From Dehalococcoidia bacterium (lineage in GTDB: Bacteria; Chloroflexota; Dehalococcoidia; Tepidiformales; Tepidiformaceae), in contig JADZEI010000065.1 in the NCBI GenBank assembly GCA_020850615.1, forward strand, positions 1 through 36,853: a stretch of 36,853 bases of DNA, in the 5' to 3' direction. The position numbers and the translations under genes were made by a program. Each line of letters starts with the position of its first letter. Positions within the stretch are counted from its first letter, which is position 1. The notes under the pieces were generated by a model, which was not told the DNA's origin, did no database searches, and saw only the letters and a program-made list of their open reading frames with translations. Below, in pieces: positions 4,746 to 16,735 of the stretch.

Positions 4746-4765
4746 CCGAATGAGGAGGTGTGCCG

Positions 4766-5503
4766 ATGGCCACCGCCGCTGAAGCCCGCACCTTCGGAGT
4801 CGACCGCGATGCGGCGATCCGGCAGTACGCGCCGCTGGTCAAGTACGTCGTCGGGCGGCTGGCGATCGGCCTGCCGGCGATCCTGGACTACGAGGACATC
4901 CTCAGCTACGGCACGATCGGCCTGATCGAGGCCCTGGACCGGTACGACGACTCGAAGGGCGTGAAGTTCGAGACGTATGCGATCAGCCGGATCCGGGGGG
5001 CGATCATCGATGCGCTGCGGTCGCTGGACCGGCTGCCGCGATCGGTGCGGCAGAAGGCGAAGCGGCTGGAGCAGGTGACCGTGGACCTGACGGCGTCGCT
5101 GGGGCGGGACCCGACTGACCAGGAGCTCGCCCAGGGCATGGGCATGACGCGCGAGCAGTACAACGGGATGCTCGTGGACTCGAGCTGGGTGACGGTTTCG
5201 CTCGACGGGCTGCTGGACCGGGACGACAACACGGACACGGGCCACACGGACATGCCGGCGGACCCGAACGAGGTGGACTTCACGGAGCGGCTCGAGAAGA
5301 AGCAGATGCTGGACGCGCTCTCGGGGGCGGTGAAGGGGCTGCCGGAGCGGGAGTGGCTGATCGTCAGCCTGTACTACAAGGACGAGATGACGATGAAGGA
5401 GATCGCCCAGATCCTCGACATCTCGGAATCGCGCGTGTGCCAGTTGCATGGCCGTGCGCTGAGCCGCCTGCGGGCCCGCCTGGCTCGCGAGAAGGCTGCG
5501 TAG
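4766..5503 (+). CDS. fliA: Flagellar sigma-28 factor FliA/SigD
   Basis: This sigma-70-family factor of the FliA class (245 aa) drives late flagellar and chemotaxis genes. Region 2 is clear (YAPLVKYVVGRLA, DYEDILSYGTIGLIEALDRYD, FETYAISRIRGAIID), followed by the FliA-typical DALRSLDRLPRSVRQKAK segment and a C-terminal region 4 helix-turn-helix (MKEIAQILDISESRVCQL). The ATG at 4766 lies 7 nt after a strong AGGAGG at 4753-4758; a GTG at 4760 is less likely. Its antagonist FlgM is encoded downstream in the same operon. Confidence 0.96.
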   Translation: MATAAEARTFGVDRDAAIRQYAPLVKYVVGRLAIGLPAILDYEDILSYGTIGLIEALDRYDDSKGVKFETYAISRIRGAIIDALRSLDRLPRSVRQKAKRLEQVTVDLTASLGRDPTDQELAQGMGMTREQYNGMLVDSSWVTVSLDGLLDRDDNTDTGHTDMPADPNEVDFTERLEKKQMLDALSGAVKGLPEREWLIVSLYYKDEMTMKEIAQILDISESRVCQLHGRALSRLRARLAREKAA

Positions 5504-5513
5504 GAGGACGGTG

Positions 5514-5837
5514 ATGAACGACGCGATTGCGTTGCTCGCGATTTCGCAGCTCGTGTGCCTGGGGGCGCTCGGGTACCTGTACATGGAGCTTTCCCGGATG
5601 CGGCGCGCGCGGCCCCGGCGCGAAGTGCGGGCCGAACGGCCGGCGCCGGCGGCTGCACGGCAGGCCGCGCAGCAGGCGTACGCCGCGCAGGGCGGCGGGC
5701 CGTTCGCGCGGGACGCGGGCAACATCGCCCAGCGGATGAACGACCTGGGAGTCGATGTCTCGACGCTGGCGCGGCGGATGGGCAAGAGCGAGGAAGAAGT
5801 GCGGCTGCTGCTGCGCCGCCAGGGCGTGGTGCGGTGA
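5514..5837 (+). CDS. SwrB/YlxL-like single-pass membrane protein
   Basis: A 107-aa protein with one N-terminal membrane helix (about residues 5-22), a basic Arg/Ala-rich linker and a small C-terminal helical module ending in a helix-turn-helix-like stretch (ARRMGKSEEEVRLLLRR). This layout and its place directly after sigma-28 match SwrB/YlxL of Bacillus, which follows sigD and promotes activation of the flagellar export apparatus. The ATG at 5514 follows AGGAGG at 5502-5507, which overlaps the fliA stop. Sequence similarity is too weak by eye to name it firmly, so the call rests on architecture and synteny. Confidence 0.72.
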   Translation: MNDAIALLAISQLVCLGALGYLYMELSRMRRARPRREVRAERPAPAAARQAAQQAYAAQGGGPFARDAGNIAQRMNDLGVDVSTLARRMGKSEEEVRLLLRRQGVVR

Positions 5838-6463
5838 TGTGGCGCCGCGTGCTCGCCGCCATCGCGTTTTGCGCGATCGCCGTTGGGGCCGTTGTTGGCG
5901 CCGGCGACGAAGCTGCGCGTGCGAACGGCGTGCCGCAGCTGGTGAAGCTGACCTACCTGGACGGGGTTTCGAACTTCGGGCCGACGGCGGCGGAAGGCGT
6001 GCTGGAGTTCAGCTTCGCCGAGGCGTACGCGCGGGTGGAAGTGAAGAACCTGCCCCCGCAGAGCGGCTACACGTACGAAGGCTGGATGGTGGCGCCGGAC
6101 GGCAGCGCCGTCTCGATCGGGACGATCGAGGTGCAGGAAAGCGGCGTGGGCACATACGAGACGAAGATCGAAGGGCTGGACCGGTACGACTACAGCCTCT
6201 TCCTCATCGCGGCGCGGAGCGCGAGCACGGCGGCGGACGCGGTGCCGGCGGAGCGGTCGATCGCGGGGCGGTTCACGATCATCGCGGACGGCACGGCCAC
6301 CGGCGGCGACGTGGGCAACGTGCGGCCGGCAACGCTGCCGGAGACGGGCGAGGCGGCACCGGGACGGGACTACAGCCGGTATGTGTGGACCGGGATCAGC
6401 ATGGCCGGGGCGGCCATCGTCATCTTCGGCGCGCGGCGCCAGCTCAGGCGGAGGCAGCCATGA
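5837..6463 (+). CDS. Secreted protein with LPETG sorting-type C-terminus, RskA-like domain
   Basis: A 208-aa protein whose ATG overlaps the preceding stop by one base. It has an N-terminal signal peptide (about 1-29, ending ARA-NG), an extracytoplasmic beta-rich domain whose GWMVAPDGSAVSIGTI stretch resembles the C-terminal domain of RskA-type anti-sigma factors, and a C-terminus with LPETG at residues 167-171 (6335-6349), a hydrophobic helix and an RRQLRRR tail. That tripartite end is the classic cell-wall sorting signal for sortases. No sortase is in the window, so it may simply be membrane-anchored. It overlaps the next rod gene, so it is co-expressed with flagellar genes. Its function is unknown. 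Confidence 0.8.
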   Translation: MWRRVLAAIAFCAIAVGAVVGAGDEAARANGVPQLVKLTYLDGVSNFGPTAAEGVLEFSFAEAYARVEVKNLPPQSGYTYEGWMVAPDGSAVSIGTIEVQESGVGTYETKIEGLDRYDYSLFLIAARSASTAADAVPAERSIAGRFTIIADGTATGGDVGNVRPATLPETGEAAPGRDYSRYVWTGISMAGAAIVIFGARRQLRRRQP

Positions 6464-7224
6464 TCAAGGGGCTCTATTCGGCGTTCTCGGCGATGGAATC
6501 GGCGTGGCAGTACCAGGACGTGCTGGCGAACAACATCGCGAACGCGACGACGGCCGGGTACAAGCGCGAAGTGGCCGCGCAGCAGTCGTTCTCGGACGTG
6601 CTGCTTTCGCAGCAATCCGGGCTGGTGGCGCCGCTGCCCGCGCGGATCCAGTCGGTCGTCGGGCAGATTGGGACAGGCAAGTTCGTTGCCGAGTTCGCGA
6701 CGGACTTCGCGAACGGCGCGTTCCAGCAGACCGGGCAGGAGCTCGACTTCGCGCTCGAAGGCGGGTTCTTCGCGGTGGAGAACGAGGCCGGCGAGCTGTT
6801 CTACACGCGCGACGGCCGGTTCGGGCGGGACGCGAACGGGGACCTGGTGACCAATCACGGCCACTACGTGCTGAACGACCAGGGTGGGCACATCAACCTG
6901 CCGGCGGAGCAGGTGACCGTGCTCGCGGACGGGACGATCACGGTGGGCGACGGGCAGTTCCTGGACCGGCTGCAGGTGGTGGACTTCACGGGCGGCGTGA
7001 TCGCGCGGTCCGGCGAGGCGTACTTCACCTCGACGGAGCCGGGGACGCCGATCGACGGGGGCGTGCGGCAGGGGTACATCGAGATGTCGAACTCTGTGCT
7101 CGTTGAGGAGATGACGACGCTGATCGCGGTGCAGCGGGCCTACCAGGCGAACCAGACGGTGCTCGCACGGCTCGACGGCACGCTCGAACAGGCGGCCGGC
7201 CAGATCGGGACGTTCGGGGTCTAA
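6460..7224 (+). CDS. Flagellar rod protein, FlgF/FlgG family (FlhO-like)
   Basis: A 254-aa basal-body rod protein. The N-terminal helix (MIKGLYSAFSAMESAWQYQDVLANNIANATTAGYKR) is the flagellar basal-body-rod signature, and the C-terminal helix (EMTTLIAVQRAYQANQTVLA) is the matching coiled-coil partner used in rod, hook and junction proteins. The middle part is a FlgF/FlgG-like D1 domain. GGAGG lies upstream of the ATG at 6460. Together with the next gene it resembles the flhO-flhP pair of Gram-positive bacteria, which builds the distal rod. Whether it is FlgF or FlgG cannot be settled by eye. Confidence 0.92.
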   Translation: MIKGLYSAFSAMESAWQYQDVLANNIANATTAGYKREVAAQQSFSDVLLSQQSGLVAPLPARIQSVVGQIGTGKFVAEFATDFANGAFQQTGQELDFALEGGFFAVENEAGELFYTRDGRFGRDANGDLVTNHGHYVLNDQGGHINLPAEQVTVLADGTITVGDGQFLDRLQVVDFTGGVIARSGEAYFTSTEPGTPIDGGVRQGYIEMSNSVLVEEMTTLIAVQRAYQANQTVLARLDGTLEQAAGQIGTFGV

Positions 7225-7226
7225 CG

Positions 7227-7970
7227 ATGACGACGATACTCGGCGCGGCGGCCAGCGGGATGATCCACAACGCGAGCGTGATGGACACGATCTCGCACAA
7301 CCTTTCGAACGCGAACACGTCGGCGTTCAAGAAGACGCTGGCGGGCGCGAGCGGGACGCCAATGGCGGACGTGGTGGAAGGGGCGGCGCGGTTGGGCGTC
7401 GCGCAGACAACCAGGCGGCAGCTGTTCGACGTGGGGGCGCCGCAGCGGTCGGAAGAACCGCTGCACTTCGCCATCACGGACGACACGTTCTTCCGGGTGA
7501 CGGACACCGAGGGCGCGGTGCGGTACACGCGGTACGGCGCGCTGCAGGTGGACACGGACGGGAACATCCTCGCCTTCGGGGGGCAGTTCCTGGAGCCGCC
7601 GGTGACGCTGCCGGCGGGGATGACGAACCCGAGCATCGGCCAGGACGGCGTGATCAGCGCCATGGACGAGAACGGCGAGCCGCAGGAGCTGGCGCAGATC
7701 ACGCTCGTGCGGTTCGTGAACCCGGCGGGGCTTATCTCGCTGGGCGACGGGCTGTACGGCGAAAGCGTGAACAGCGGTGCGTCCACCGAAGGGACCCCGG
7801 GTACCGACGGATTTGGCCCCCTGGCGACGGGTGCCGTCGAGGGTTCGAACGTCGATATTGCCCAGGAGTTCACCAACATGATCATCGCGCAGCGCGCCTA
7901 TGGCGTGGCTGCGAAGACCTTCATGGTCGGCGACCAGATGCTCGCCCAGGCCACGGACATCACGCAGTAG
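7227..7970 (+). CDS. Flagellar rod protein, FlgG family (FlhP-like)
   Basis: A second 247-aa rod protein, starting 2 bp after the previous stop. The N-terminal rod motif (MDTISHNLSNANTSAFKKTL) and C-terminal helix (EFTNMIIAQRAYGVAAKTFMVGDQMLAQATDI) are typical of FlgG, which forms the distal rod. The central domain keeps a YTRYGALQVDTDGNIL stretch. It is probably a paralogue of the gene before it. The pair is followed by flgM-flgN-flgK-flgL, a common block order. Confidence 0.93.
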   Translation: MTTILGAAASGMIHNASVMDTISHNLSNANTSAFKKTLAGASGTPMADVVEGAARLGVAQTTRRQLFDVGAPQRSEEPLHFAITDDTFFRVTDTEGAVRYTRYGALQVDTDGNILAFGGQFLEPPVTLPAGMTNPSIGQDGVISAMDENGEPQELAQITLVRFVNPAGLISLGDGLYGESVNSGASTEGTPGTDGFGPLATGAVEGSNVDIAQEFTNMIIAQRAYGVAAKTFMVGDQMLAQATDITQ

Positions 7971-7980
7971 GAGGCCCGGA

Positions 7981-8295
7981 ATGAACCGGATCGATGGCAT
8001 GAACCCCCTGAGCACGAGCCGCACGCAGCAGGGTGCGGGCGTTTCCGGGGTCGACGGGCAGAAGGGCCGTGGCCGCAGCGAGGGCGTGGACGCGAGCGGG
8101 GCGGGGCACGACAACCTGTCGCTTTCGAGCCGCGGGCGGGAAGTGGCCGATGCTGCGCGGGCGGTCGCGCAATCGCCGGACGTGCGGGCGGCGAAGGTGG
8201 CGGCGCTGAAGGCGGCGATCGCGGACGGGAGCTACACCTCCGACCCGCGGCAGATCGCGGCGCGGTTGCTTTCGACCGGGACCTTCGGGGAGTGA
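7981..8295 (+). CDS. flgM: Anti-sigma-28 factor FlgM
   Basis: A 104-aa protein. The disordered, Gly/Ser-rich N-terminal half is followed by the conserved C-terminal helices that grip sigma-28 (LSSRGREVADAAR and VAALKAAIADGSYTSDP, ending QIAARLL). FlgM holds FliA inactive until it is exported through the completed hook-basal body. An AGGAGG site that overlaps the preceding stop lies just upstream of the ATG at 7981. The fliA gene lies 3 kb upstream in the same operon. Confidence 0.93.
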   Translation: MNRIDGMNPLSTSRTQQGAGVSGVDGQKGRGRSEGVDASGAGHDNLSLSSRGREVADAARAVAQSPDVRAAKVAALKAAIADGSYTSDPRQIAARLLSTGTFGE

Positions 8296-8299
8296 CGCG

Positions 8300-8782
8300 A
8301 TGGCCGACGCACGGATCACCGACCTGGAGCAGTTGCTCGACCTCTTCGGGCGGCAGGAGACCGCGATCGCGGAGCTGGTGCACCTGGCGCTGCGGGAGCA
8401 GAAGGCGCTGATCCACAGCGACTACGCGGCCATCCACGAGATCAGCGACCAGATGCTGGCGGTGGCGGCGACGATCGACCGGCTGGACGGGGAGCGGGCG
8501 GAGCTGACTTCACGGCTTGGTAACCCGGAAAGCCTCGATGAACTGCTGCCACTGGCCGATAGTCTGGGCATCGAGGGTTTTGGCGAGGCCCGCGAGCGGC
8601 TGCTGAGCGAGGCGACGGACCTCCGTCGCGCGCAGGAGCAGAACGCATCGCTGATCCTCAATGCCGTGCGCCTGCGCGAGCGCTGGCTGGCGCTGGTGGC
8701 GGGGATGGCGGCGCCGACCTACGGGGCGGCCGGACAACAGGAACTCCACCGGGGCCGCGGGTTGATGTCCCGCAGCGCCTGA
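8300..8782 (+). CDS. flgN: Flagellar chaperone FlgN
   Basis: A 160-aa, almost wholly helical protein with long amphipathic coiled-coil segments (about residues 8-70 and 95-135) and the FlgN-like opening LEQLLDLFGRQETAIAELV. FlgN is the export chaperone of the hook-filament junction proteins FlgK and FlgL, which are the next two genes. It starts 4 bp after the flgM stop. The primary sequence of this family is poorly conserved, so length, helical character and position carry much of the call. Confidence 0.87.
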   Translation: MADARITDLEQLLDLFGRQETAIAELVHLALREQKALIHSDYAAIHEISDQMLAVAATIDRLDGERAELTSRLGNPESLDELLPLADSLGIEGFGEARERLLSEATDLRRAQEQNASLILNAVRLRERWLALVAGMAAPTYGAAGQQELHRGRGLMSRSA

Positions 8783-8791
8783 GGAGGGCAC

Positions 8792-10198
8792 ATGGGACTC
8801 TCAATCGGGCTCGACACGGCGGTCAAGGCGCTGCGTGCGCACCAGCTCGCGGTGGACGTGGCATCGCACAACATCGCGAACGCGAACACGCCGGGGTTCT
8901 CGCGGCAGCGCGTGCTGCTGCGCCCGATCGGGGTGGACGGCTCGGACCACTTTTCGCGCGATGCGCTGCTGGGGCGGGTGGGCTTCGGCGTCGACGCGAG
9001 CGACGTGAACCGGGTGCGGAACGTGTTCCTGGACTTCCAGCAGCGGTCGGCGCTGGGTTCGAAGTCGCAGTACACGGCGATGGCGAACGAGCTGGCGAAG
9101 ACGGAGATCATCTTCAACGACCCGAGCGACGACGGGATGTCGGCGCTGCTGGGGCAGTTCTGGAACGCCTGGCACGACGTGGTGAACGACCCGGAACTGA
9201 GCGCCGGGCGGACGACGCTGGTGCATTCGACGACGACGCTGACGACGCGGATCCAGGGCGCCTATAACAACCTGGTGGACCAGCGGAAGGAGCTGAACTT
9301 CGAGGTCGCGGTGATCGCGGACGAGATCAACGCGAAGGCCTCGGAGATCGCCTCGCTGAACTTTCAGATCAAGCAGGTCGAGCTTTCGGGCGACATGGCG
9401 AACGACCTGCGAGACCGGCGGGACCTGCTGCTGGACGAGCTCTCGGGGATCGCGCAGATCTCGTACGCGGAACAGCCGGACCGGTCGGTAGCCGTGTACA
9501 TGGGGAACCACGAGCTGGTGGTGCAGAACAGCATCCGCGAGGTCGCGGTGGTGGGCGATGCGCTCAACCCGGGGATGAACAAGCTCGTGTTCGCGGGCGA
9601 CAACGCCGACGTTCAAACGACGACGGGGCGGCTGCGCGGCATCCTGGACGTGCGGGACAACGACCTGCCGAAGCTGATCCAGAAGATGAACGACTTCGCT
9701 TCGCAGCTGATCACGTCGGTCAACGCGCTGCACACGACCGGGTATGGGCTCGACAACGCCACCGGGAACGCGTTCTTCACGGGCACGGACGCATCGAACA
9801 TCGCGATCAACGCGGTGCTGACGGCGAACCCGGAACGGATCGCGGTGTCTTCGGCGATGAACGCGCCGGGCGATGCCTCGATTGGCCTGCAGATCGCGGA
9901 CCTGGCGCAGGCGATGACGATGAGCGGCGGGACGGAGACGTTCGCGGACTACTACGGGAGCCTGGTCACGAACCTGGGCGCGGACATCAACCGGGCGAAG
10001 GGGCTGCAGTCTTCGGGCGAGCTGCTTTCGAACCACCTGGAAGCGATGCGGCAATCGACGCAGGGCGTGAACATCGACGAGGAAGTGACTCAGCTGAACA
10101 GCGCGCAGCACGCGTACCAGGCGGCGGCGCGGGTGATCACGACGATCGACGAGATGCTGGACACGCTGATCAACCGGACAGGGCTGGCGGGGAGGTAG
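8792..10198 (+). CDS. flgK: Hook-filament junction protein FlgK (HAP1)
   Basis: A 468-aa hook-associated protein. The N-terminal rod signature (LAVDVASHNIANANTPGFSRQRVLL) and the conserved C-terminal helix (GVNIDEEVTQLNSAQHAYQAAARVITTIDEMLDTLIN) are diagnostic of FlgK. The middle region includes FWNAWHDVVNDPE and the DLRDRRDLLLDEL stretch seen in the family. GGAGGG precedes the ATG. It connects hook and filament and is exported with the help of FlgN. Confidence 0.96.
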   Translation: MGLSIGLDTAVKALRAHQLAVDVASHNIANANTPGFSRQRVLLRPIGVDGSDHFSRDALLGRVGFGVDASDVNRVRNVFLDFQQRSALGSKSQYTAMANELAKTEIIFNDPSDDGMSALLGQFWNAWHDVVNDPELSAGRTTLVHSTTTLTTRIQGAYNNLVDQRKELNFEVAVIADEINAKASEIASLNFQIKQVELSGDMANDLRDRRDLLLDELSGIAQISYAEQPDRSVAVYMGNHELVVQNSIREVAVVGDALNPGMNKLVFAGDNADVQTTTGRLRGILDVRDNDLPKLIQKMNDFASQLITSVNALHTTGYGLDNATGNAFFTGTDASNIAINAVLTANPERIAVSSAMNAPGDASIGLQIADLAQAMTMSGGTETFADYYGSLVTNLGADINRAKGLQSSGELLSNHLEAMRQSTQGVNIDEEVTQLNSAQHAYQAAARVITTIDEMLDTLINRTGLAGR

Positions 10199-10201
10199 GC
10201 G

Positions 10202-11086
10202 ATGCGCGTCTCTGAACAGTCGCGACTGGCGTCGCGGATCGGCTACCTGCAGACGGTTTCGCAGCGGCTGGACAAGATCCAGCAGGAGCTCAGCACGGGA
10301 CGGAAGATCCAGCGTTCGAGCGACGACCCGGCGGGGGCATCGCTGGCGTTGAACCACCGGCAGAACCTGACGTTCGAAACGCAGCTGCGGCGGAACCTCT
10401 CGAGCGGCGTTTCGTTCATGAACGCGACGGAGGCGGCGCTGGGCGGCGCGACGGATGTGCTGCAGCGGGTGCGGGAGCTGACGATCCAGGCGTCGAACGA
10501 CACGCTTTCGCCTTCGGAGCGGACGGCGGCGGGTGCGGAGGTGAACCAGCTCATTGGGGAGATGGCGCAGCTGGCGAACACGAGCTTCGGCGGGGCGTAC
10601 ATCTTCGCGGGGCACCGGTCGGACGCGCCGGCATACCAGGTGACGGGGACGCCGCCGAGCGCGGTGACGTTCATGGGCGACACCGGGCAGCGGGTGCGGC
10701 GGATCTCGAAGCAGGACGCGGTGGCGATAAACGTGGCGGGGTCGAACGTGTTCGGCACGGTGTTCGACGACCTGATCACGCTGCGGAACCAGATGAACGG
10801 CTCGGCTTCGGGGACGACGATCAGCGGCAACCTGGGGGCGATCGACGATGCGCTCGGGCGGGTGCTGGACGCGCGGGCGGAGGTTGGCGCGCGGGTGAAC
10901 CGGTTCGAAGCGGCGCAGCGGGTCTCGGAACAGGCGGACACGGACCTGCAGAAGCTGCGGGCGGAGATCGAGGAGATCGACCTGAGCGAGACGATCGTGA
11001 AGTTCACGGCGCAGGAGACGGCGTACCAGGCGGCGCTGGCGGCGATGGGGAAGACGGCGAACATGACGCTGTTGAACTTCCTGTAG
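10202..11086 (+). CDS. flgL: Hook-filament junction protein FlgL (HAP3)
   Basis: A 294-aa protein with the flagellin-like N-terminal domain (LDKIQQELSTGRKIQRSSDDPAGASLAL) and a flagellin-like C-terminal helix (ETIVKFTAQETAYQAALAAMGKTANMTLLNFL). FlgL is the second junction protein between hook and filament. It begins 3 bp after flgK with a GAGGT site. It is the last gene of the operon in this window; flagellin, FliD and motor genes are not present here. No convincing intrinsic terminator follows; repeats begin at once. Confidence 0.95.
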   Translation: MRVSEQSRLASRIGYLQTVSQRLDKIQQELSTGRKIQRSSDDPAGASLALNHRQNLTFETQLRRNLSSGVSFMNATEAALGGATDVLQRVRELTIQASNDTLSPSERTAAGAEVNQLIGEMAQLANTSFGGAYIFAGHRSDAPAYQVTGTPPSAVTFMGDTGQRVRRISKQDAVAINVAGSNVFGTVFDDLITLRNQMNGSASGTTISGNLGAIDDALGRVLDARAEVGARVNRFEAAQRVSEQADTDLQKLRAEIEEIDLSETIVKFTAQETAYQAALAAMGKTANMTLLNFL

Positions 11087-11106: not shown

Positions 11107-11800
11107 GTGATGGTGTGGAGCGCTGTGCGGGCGCCTGCCCTCGCTCACGCGCGGGCTACTGATTGGCCGGTGAGGGGTGTCGAGCGCTGGCGCGGGGCGG
11201 GGTCGCTGAGGGCGCGCGGGCGCTCGCTCACGCGCGCGCTACTGATGGCGCGGCTGGGGTGGGCGGCCGGTGGGCTGCGCGGGGCGCCTGCCCTCGCTCA
11301 CGCGCGGGCTACTGATTGGCCGGTGGGAAGGGTCGAGCGCTGGCGCGGGGCGGGGTCGCTGGGGGTGTGCGCGGGCGCTCGCTCGGGCGGGCGCTACTGA
11401 TGTCGTGGCCCGGGTGGGCGGTGGGGAGTGCGCGGGGCGTTGGCCCTGGTGGCGCGCGGGCCTGGCGAGCGGGGTCGAATGCTGGCGCGGGGCGGGGTCG
11501 CTGGGGGCGCGCGGGCCTGGCGAGCGGGGTCGAGCGCTGGCGCGGGGCGGGTCGCTGGGGGTGTGCGCGGGCGCTCGCTCACGCGCGCGCTACTGATGGC
11601 GTGGCCGGGGTGGGCGGCCGGTGGGCTGCGCGGGGCGCCTGCCCTCGCTCACGCGCGGGCTACTGATTGGCCGGTGGGAGGGGTCGAGCGCTGGCGCGGG
11701 GCGGGGTCGCTCGGGGGCGCGCGGGCGTGGTGGGTGGGGCGCGCGGGCGCTCGCTCAGGCGGGCGCTACTGATGGCGTGCTACTGATGATGCGCGCTGCC
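11107..11800. repeat. Cluster of GTAG-headed hairpin repeats between flgL and the regulator gene
   Basis: This convergent gap of about 750 bp holds no credible gene. It contains at least seven hairpins, each ending in CTAC (GTAG on the other strand). Positions are 11138-11155, 11220-11239, 11291-11308, 11375-11394, 11571-11590, 11642-11659 and 11747-11766. Three have arms CCCtCGC/GCGcGGG and four have GCGCtCGC with GCGcGCGC or GCGgGCGC; loops are TCAC, TCGG or TCAG. The change CCC/GGG to CGC/GCG keeps pairing. Between hairpins a degenerate spacer (CTGGCGCGGGGCGGGGTCGC) recurs. The layout resembles REP elements. Confidence 0.85.
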
Positions 11801-11828
11801 GTCGGCTGATGATTGACGACTGATAACC
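11801..11828. repeat. Degenerate heptanucleotide tract
   Basis: Four 7-bp blocks (GTCGGCT, GATGATT, GACGACT, GATAACC) near the 3' end of the regulator gene. The last three share GAnnAnN. It is more degenerate than the other tracts, so it is listed with low confidence. Confidence 0.35.
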
Positions 11829-15991: not shown

Positions 15992-16735
15992 GAGCGAGCC
16001 GGGCGGTCGCGGGGCTCCCGCCCTCGCAGCCCCGGGCGTTGGTGGACTGTCGGTGTGGCATGCGTGGGCTTCCGCTAAGGGCCCACGAGGGGCCCGGGCT
16101 ACACCCGTGAACGGCGTGAGGTGCCCAGGGGCGGGGACGCGGATGGCGGCGGGCGTGACAGTGTCCTGAGCGAGCCGGGCGGTCGCGGGGCTCCCGCCCT
16201 CGCAGCACCGGGCGTTGGTGGACTATCGGTGTGGCATGCGTGGGCTTCCGCTAAGGGCCCACGAGGGGCCCGGGCTACACCCGTGAACGGCGTGAGGTGC
16301 CCAGGGGCGGGGAAGCGGATGGCGGCGGGCGCGGGGCGTTCTGAGCGAGCCGGGCGGTCGCGGGGCTCCCGCCCTTGCGGCACCGGGCGTTGGTGGACTG
16401 TCGTGTGGCATGCGTGGGCTTCCGCTAAGGGCCCACGAGGGGCCCGGGCTACACCCGTGAACGGCGTGAGGTGCCCCGGGGCGGGAAGCAGGTGGCGGAG
16501 GGGGTGCGGGGCGTTCTGAGCGAGCCGGGCGGTCGCGGGGCTCCCGCCCTTGCGGCACCGGGCGTTGGTGGACTGTCGGTGTGGCATGCGTGGGCTTCCG
16601 CTAAGGGCCCACGAGGGGCCCGGGCTACACCCGTGAACGGCGTGAGGTGCCCAGGGGCGGGGACGCGGATGGCGGCGGACGTGACAGTGTCCTGAGCGAG
16701 CCGGGCGGTCGCGGGGCTCCCGCCCTCGCAGCATG
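15992..16735. repeat. Tandem array of a 175-176 bp unit, about 4.3 copies
   Basis: The landmark GAGCGAGCCGGGCGG starts at 15992, 16168, 16343, 16518 and 16693 (spacings 176, 175, 175, 175). Each full unit has two hairpins. One is built from GGGCGG/CCGCCC flanked by GCGA/TCGC. The other is GGGCCC-ACGAG-GGGCCC followed by GGG-CTAC (16079-16095, 16255-16271, 16429-16445, 16605-16621). Copies are nearly identical, so expansion is recent. The array fills the tail-to-tail gap between mnmA and the DUF2007-like gene. Because 175 is not a multiple of 3, open frames crossing several units read them in different frames, so the array is non-coding. Confidence 0.92.

Follow-up and report, generated by a model that had tools for sequence, protein, structure and literature searches.

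Introduction

Sortase substrates of the LPXTG type carry an N-terminal Sec signal, a C-terminal LPxTG motif, a hydrophobic stretch and a basic tail, and a sortase is encoded in the same genome; the protein described here, X, has the same layout. Some LPXTG substrates are served by dedicated sortases, of which the class C sortases of pili are an example. As in the case reported here, signal peptide, sorting signal and sortase then belong to the same functional gene set. Unlike in those systems, the partner is a rotary flagellum, the substrate and the sortase are encoded in separate flagellar operons, and X is a single small beta domain. The operon around X contains the same kinds of genes as sigD-swrB, flhO-flhP and flgM-flgN-flgK-flgL of Bacillus subtilis, in which, to our knowledge, no LPxTG gene stands at the operon place of X.

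How the rod is held in the wall in flagella without P- and L-rings is an unsettled question. The P-ring protein FlgI, part of the LP-ring bushing, is Sec-exported and fixed to the peptidoglycan near the FlgF/FlgG rod, as is proposed for X, and in Bacillus the role of the bushing is believed to fall to the thick peptidoglycan (both according to passages of PMC11673145). X differs from FlgI in being non-homologous and in its predicted covalent anchoring, as opposed to ring association. The available passages of the Thermomicrobium roseum genome paper state that P- and L-rings are missing and that flagellar attachment "remains ambiguous", and mention neither sortase nor LPXTG (PMC2615216). Sortase is likewise not mentioned in the passages available from a paper on Chloroflexota archaella and flagella (PMC12488501) or in the main text of PMC10284905, and the Actinoplanes papers concern spore surfaces in the parts available (PMC13251363, PMC13293333). 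In searches of open-licence PMC text, no paper was found that presents a sortase or LPxTG protein as a flagellar component.

Genomes and sequence sets

The window is the whole stretch of DNA analysed, 36,853 nucleotides of contig JADZEI010000065.1 (Dehalococcoidia bacterium, family Tepidiformaceae, assembly GCA_020850615.1). Its genome (G000, hereafter the own genome) is a draft bin, 95% complete with 3.6% contamination. The relatives' set had 61 genomes, the own genome and 60 relatives. Sampling the phylum evenly for 400 genomes gave 51 FlhA matches, 46 of them above the cut-off. The wider set of 40 flagellated genomes was made up of 39 of these, from outside the family and with a clear FlhA match, together with G039.

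The full-length X set contained 46 copies from 14 families (23 from relatives and 23 from the wider phylum). Left out were L029/L034 (Tepidiforma flava, frameshifts), L032 (contig end), L114 (E 0.0097), and L033 and L035, which gave weak partial matches without flagellar neighbours.

The names FlhF, PilZ-like, FliA and SwrB-like were assigned by reading the sequences, and FlgF to FlgL by profile matches. The structure of X was modelled with AlphaFold2 on an alignment of 23 homologues. The screen for C-terminal sorting signals took in 517 called genes: those of the window and the flagellar loci, and those in about 95 kb surrounding the remaining sortases of the own genome. The sortase tree was built from 56 sequences, one per locus, few of them non-flagellar, with L124 (truncated) and L001 (a duplicate of L046) dropped. 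The overlapping loci L005 and L007 yielded one and the same protein, and L006 yielded none.

The gene and its operon

The gene order in the window was FlhA, FlhF, PilZ-like, a small membrane gene, FliA, SwrB-like, X, FlgF, FlgG, FlgM, FlgN, FlgK and FlgL. X is the 208-aa translation of a stop-free reading frame, and its parts follow one another as signal peptide, RskA_C-type beta domain, linker, LPETG, hydrophobic helix and basic tail. The features, with positions in the window, are as follows:

4760..5503, + strand: FliA (sigma-28), two genes upstream of X, a conserved neighbour
5511..5837, + strand: SwrB-like small membrane gene directly upstream of X; DUF2802 match sub-threshold only
5837..6463, + strand: X (208 aa), a secreted LPxTG protein encoded in the flagellar operon
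5837..5923, + strand: predicted Sec signal peptide of X, residues 1-29, cleavage between ARA and NG; AxA-type site in 46/46 copies, helix 2-21 in the model
5924..6286, + strand: RskA_C-type ectodomain of X, residues 30-150, a Greek-key barrel resembling SOD1 but with no metal ligands (PF10099, model)
6287..6334, + strand: variable, disordered linker of X, residues 151-166; pLDDT <50 at 152-163
6335..6349, + strand: LPETG sorting motif of X, residues 167-171; L, P, T and G invariant in 46/46 copies
6350..6460, + strand: hydrophobic helix and basic tail of X, residues 172-208; helix 179-206 in the model, sorting-signal screen
6460..7224, + strand: FlgF-type rod protein (PF22692, PF06429, PF00460; TIGR03506, 168.7 bits)
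7227..7970, + strand: FlgG-type rod protein (profile matches)
7981..11086, + strand: FlgM, FlgN, FlgK and FlgL, the remaining operon; start of FlgM uncertain

A sequence-only reading of this DNA had proposed an LPETG protein with a signal peptide, an RskA-like domain and a helix/basic tail between the SwrB-like gene and the rod genes. Every part that it listed was present. X overlaps its neighbours on both sides: the start of X overlaps the stop of the SwrB-like gene (TGATG), and its stop overlaps the start of FlgF (ATGA).

Downstream of FlgL (11107-11809), overlapping reading frames repeat GC-rich phrases and look like a repeat array, not genes; a similar pattern was seen on the minus strand near 16099-16734.

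Ectodomain fold

PF10099 (RskA_C) matched X above its cut-off (E 2.3e-8, 34.8 bits against 29.4), and matched 14 of 23 X family members at E<=0.01; PDB sequence searches with X gave nothing convincing. In the model (mean pLDDT 86.1), the N-terminal helix is followed by a beta domain that spans roughly 34-146 with pLDDT mostly >90, by a disordered stretch at 152-163 and by a C-terminal helix at 179-206. The domain superposed on the Cu,Zn superoxide dismutase barrel of 6flh (VIA-align Z 10.9, rmsd 2.9 over 107 residues), while the best Foldseek E value was only 2e-3. The Greek-key beta barrel is thus shared with Cu,Zn superoxide dismutase, but the histidines that bind Cu and Zn are not: the X domain of the window contains no His or Cys, and no His column is conserved in the 46 copies. 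Superoxide dismutase activity was therefore rejected.

X shares with the anti-sigma-K factor RskA the family of the C-terminal ectodomain (PF10099); it differs in having no cytoplasmic anti-sigma domain and in carrying a sorting signal. The PF10099 match, a weak match to an NCBIfam anti-sigma model (25.7 bits against a cut-off of 100) and the position two genes after fliA might suggest that X senses assembly or regulates FliA in the manner of an anti-sigma factor. We regard this role as very unlikely. A cytoplasmic anti-sigma domain gave no match in X and would have no room, the N-terminus being taken up by the signal peptide, whose AxA-type cleavage site stands in the same alignment column in 46/46 copies (pattern [AVSGILT]xA, ending at residue 29 between ARA and NGVPQ in the window). 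This speaks against X acting purely as a sensor or anti-sigma factor. Moreover, the operon already has the anti-sigma-28 factor FlgM, and an LPxTG motif would be pointless in a membrane-spanning regulator. No sigma-K partner for X was seen.

The sorting signal

L, P, T and G of the LPxTG motif were conserved at 100% in the 46 full-length copies, and x was any of seven residues (D, N, Q, E, R, K or Y). Most columns flanking the motif were conserved at <=50%, with P at -3 reaching 93%, and the stretch from residue 146 to residue 167 varied between 11 and 51 aa (median 17). Four fixed positions and a free x within a fast-changing tail are what would be predicted for a sortase site. In the window, the basic tail reads RRQLRRRQ. 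The sorting-signal screen was passed by 22/23 rows of alignment A2, the one miss having a long extra tail, and odd tails occurred in some of the 23 copies from the wider phylum.

That the LPETG is incidental, and the C-terminal helix a plain membrane anchor, appears barely credible. It would fit with the general LPXTG-anchor models PF00746 and TIGR01167, neither of which matched the X tail at E<=1. X was also not listed in a TIGR01167 search of the own genome, but the same 34-position model matched all 14 control genomes, so that this search discriminates poorly. The conservation of LPxTG in 46/46 homologues from 14 families, within a variable surround, argues against chance, and sortases were found in all X-bearing genomes (see below).

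Among the 517 genes screened, only the X copies and one beta-helix protein of T. roseum passed, and the stretches of the own genome covered by the screen yielded no LPxTG protein besides X.

Distribution of X

X matched 26/61 genomes of the relatives' set, and 25 when G015 was set aside, in which the match was partial, weak (E 1.3e-4) and without flagellar neighbours. FlhA was present in 27/61 genomes and X in 25 of these 27, the exceptions being G030 (78% complete) and G039; besides the weak partial match in G015, X was found in 0/34 relatives without FlhA. FliA before and FlgF after X were seen in 24/25 relatives, and the last locus runs off its contig.

In the wider set, the profile search found X in 23/40 flagellated genomes. 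FlgF followed it in 23/23 and FliA preceded it in 22/23, the exception lying 93 bases from the contig start. Conservation of the gene in the same operon slot, which the sequence-only reading had put forward as a check, was observed in the relatives: FlgF stood directly after X in 46/46 full-length copies and FliA before it in 45/46 (the exception being the copy at a contig start). The homologues for which names were available came from Dehalococcoidia and other Chloroflexota, Tepidiforma included.

The slot region was examined in ten FlhA-bearing genomes without X. In L167, L170 and L171 the region does not cover the whole slot. The seven that show both FliA and FlgF have no X, and FlgF is either the next gene downstream of FliA or separated from it by one or two small genes. 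X is therefore not needed for every such flagellum, as relatives without it keep the order FliA-(SwrB-like)-FlgF, also without FlgI.

In the complete genome of Tepidiforma flava (CP115149; L069/L029/L034), X, FlhA, FliA and FlgF all appear frameshifted. The strain is reported to be flagellated, which suggests assembly errors. G039 (L129, L167) belongs to the class and is flagellated, yet has neither X nor a sortase linked to FliS, which makes it a natural contrast for comparative work.

A flagellum-linked sortase

Seven sortase domains (PF04203) were found in the own genome, so that the absence of sortases, part of a condition that the sequence-only reading had named as evidence against itself, was not observed. 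The best of them (G000:C29, 82.4 bits) lies in a run of flagellin, flagellin, FlaG-like, FliD, FliS, FliT-like, sortase, FlgM and a winged-helix regulator. Pfam confirmed the flagellins, FliD, FliS, FlgM and the sortase; the FlaG-like and FliT-like genes had no Pfam match above the cut-off and were named by place. The models for sortase classes C, D, E and F all scored below their cut-offs on the linked sortase, and only TIGR01076 passed. X and this sortase are encoded in different operons, and the contig C29 is joined to the window by inference from the relatives, the own genome being a draft bin.

The genome holds two FlgM genes, one in the rod operon (window, about 7981-8295) and the other downstream of the flagellar sortase. 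In that second place (G000:C29; L046, 7976-9132), the gene after FlgM encodes a regulator with a Trans_reg_C domain and no receiver-domain match.

A sortase on the same strand and within about 1.3 kb of FliS was found in 23/26 FliS-bearing genomes of the relatives' set. With G024, where the locus is cut by a contig end, the count becomes 24/26, and the exceptions are G039, which also has no X, and G040. Among the 40 flagellated genomes, a linked sortase was present in 16/23 with X versus 1/17 without (Fisher p 6e-5, descent ignored); by family, with the relatives added, the counts were 11/15 versus 0/11 (p 2e-4, descent ignored). The catalytic residues H129, C193 and R200 were present in 41/41 linked sortases. 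In the tree, the 41 linked sequences and one other (G023) fell on one side of a branch with support 90/78, and the linked and unlinked labels required 2 changes, compared with 13.4 in shuffles (0/500 as low). The linked sortases nearly form one clade.

In six linked sortases (L135, L136, L141, L142, L147, L148), a lipobox-like motif replaces the plain N-terminal membrane helix.

No linked sortase was seen in four X-bearing families (f5, f79, f80 and f85), so that X and a linked sortase are not strictly paired. In f79 and f80 the best sortase lay in another place, next to apparently non-flagellar genes, and in several X families without a linked sortase it lay among housekeeping genes. In G185 (f85), FliS was not found and the contig begins too close for a linkage call. 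A sortase was nevertheless present in every X-bearing genome searched.

These four families would also fit with X as a general surface protein or adhesin that is merely co-expressed with the flagellum, the linked sortase serving other substrates; so would the second sortase and the LPATG beta-helix protein that adjoin FlgE in T. roseum (described below). We consider this improbable, since a single slot and domain are kept throughout the phylum and tied to the presence of FlhA, a lone domain of some 120 residues, tethered by a short linker, would have little reach, and the 517 genes screened showed the signal only in X copies and the one T. roseum protein. The sequence comparisons give strong support to X as a genuine sortase substrate with a tie to the flagellum, and the flagellum-linked sortase is a partner that the sequence-only reading had not foreseen.

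Thermomicrobium roseum

On the T. roseum megaplasmid NC_011961, X is WP_012642757.1, annotated "hypothetical protein", with the motif LPQTG. It lies between TRD_RS09465, the gene in the FliA place (annotated FliA/WhiG), and a hook-basal body protein, and the sortase WP_012642972.1 comes after FlaG, FliD, FliS and FliT. A tblastn search of plasmids with the X protein of the window gave no match; the DNA of a closer homologue did find T. roseum.

Directly downstream of FlgE, on the same strand, T. roseum encodes another sortase, annotated as class F, and a beta-helix protein of 899 aa with a C-terminal LPATG signal (L177, 20858-24223; record positions 630857-634222). They are possibly a second sortase-substrate pair of the flagellar set.

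The flagellar clusters of T. roseum include a peptidoglycan endopeptidase beside FlgB, and also MotA/MotB. These neighbours are compatible with X being sortase-anchored and flagellar in a role other than a collar: it could hold stators or motor parts, or shield the wall and the rod from lytic enzymes while the rod grows. Anchoring and the link to flagella are supported for this alternative by the same evidence as for the collar; we consider it unlikely but worth keeping in view. Against it, the X gene stands beside rod genes, not beside MotA/MotB, in the loci read, and nothing positive was found for any of the named roles.

Discussion

We favour, with some reserve, the reading of X as a wall protein dedicated to the flagellum, anchored by a sortase at the basal body and perhaps forming a collar for the rod. 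The sequence-only reading had suggested that it might anchor or guide the rod at the envelope, or sense assembly. X would be exported by Sec, and a sortase, usually the flagellar one and elsewhere a general one, would cut it between T and G and join it to the peptidoglycan at the basal body. Less certainly, the barrel, held near the wall on its short linker, may line or brace the hole in the peptidoglycan crossed by the FlgF/FlgG rod. The setting would be monoderm cells without a P-ring, X being fixed to the wall and not homologous to FlgI.

FlgI (P-ring, PF02119) was found in 0/61 genomes of the relatives' set and in 0/40 flagellated genomes, and X itself had no PF02119 match. The flagellated genomes without X also have no FlgI, which weakens X as a simple alternative to FlgI; for the same reason, X cannot be a universal replacement of the P-ring. 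A collar or brace fixed to the wall is still the most economical guess for the role of X, given the place beside the rod genes, the predicted Sec export, the short linker and the missing P-ring. The wall anchoring is a prediction that we hold firmly, and the collar role one that we hold loosely. In its fullest form, the sortase encoded with the filament genes would stitch X to the peptidoglycan around the rod as a covalent bushing, an unrelated stand-in for the P-ring in monoderm, S-layered cells; this version is offered as a tentative and rather doubtful proposal.

Sortase-substrate pairs and flagella are each known, and their union is new as far as could be seen in the open-licence literature. 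A conserved sortase substrate, together with a flagellar sortase, provides a concrete and testable candidate for how the rod is held, and one that is available in cultured, motile Tepidiforma strains. The sequence comparisons suggest that, in many flagellated Chloroflexota, the flagellum has a component that is bonded to the cell wall.
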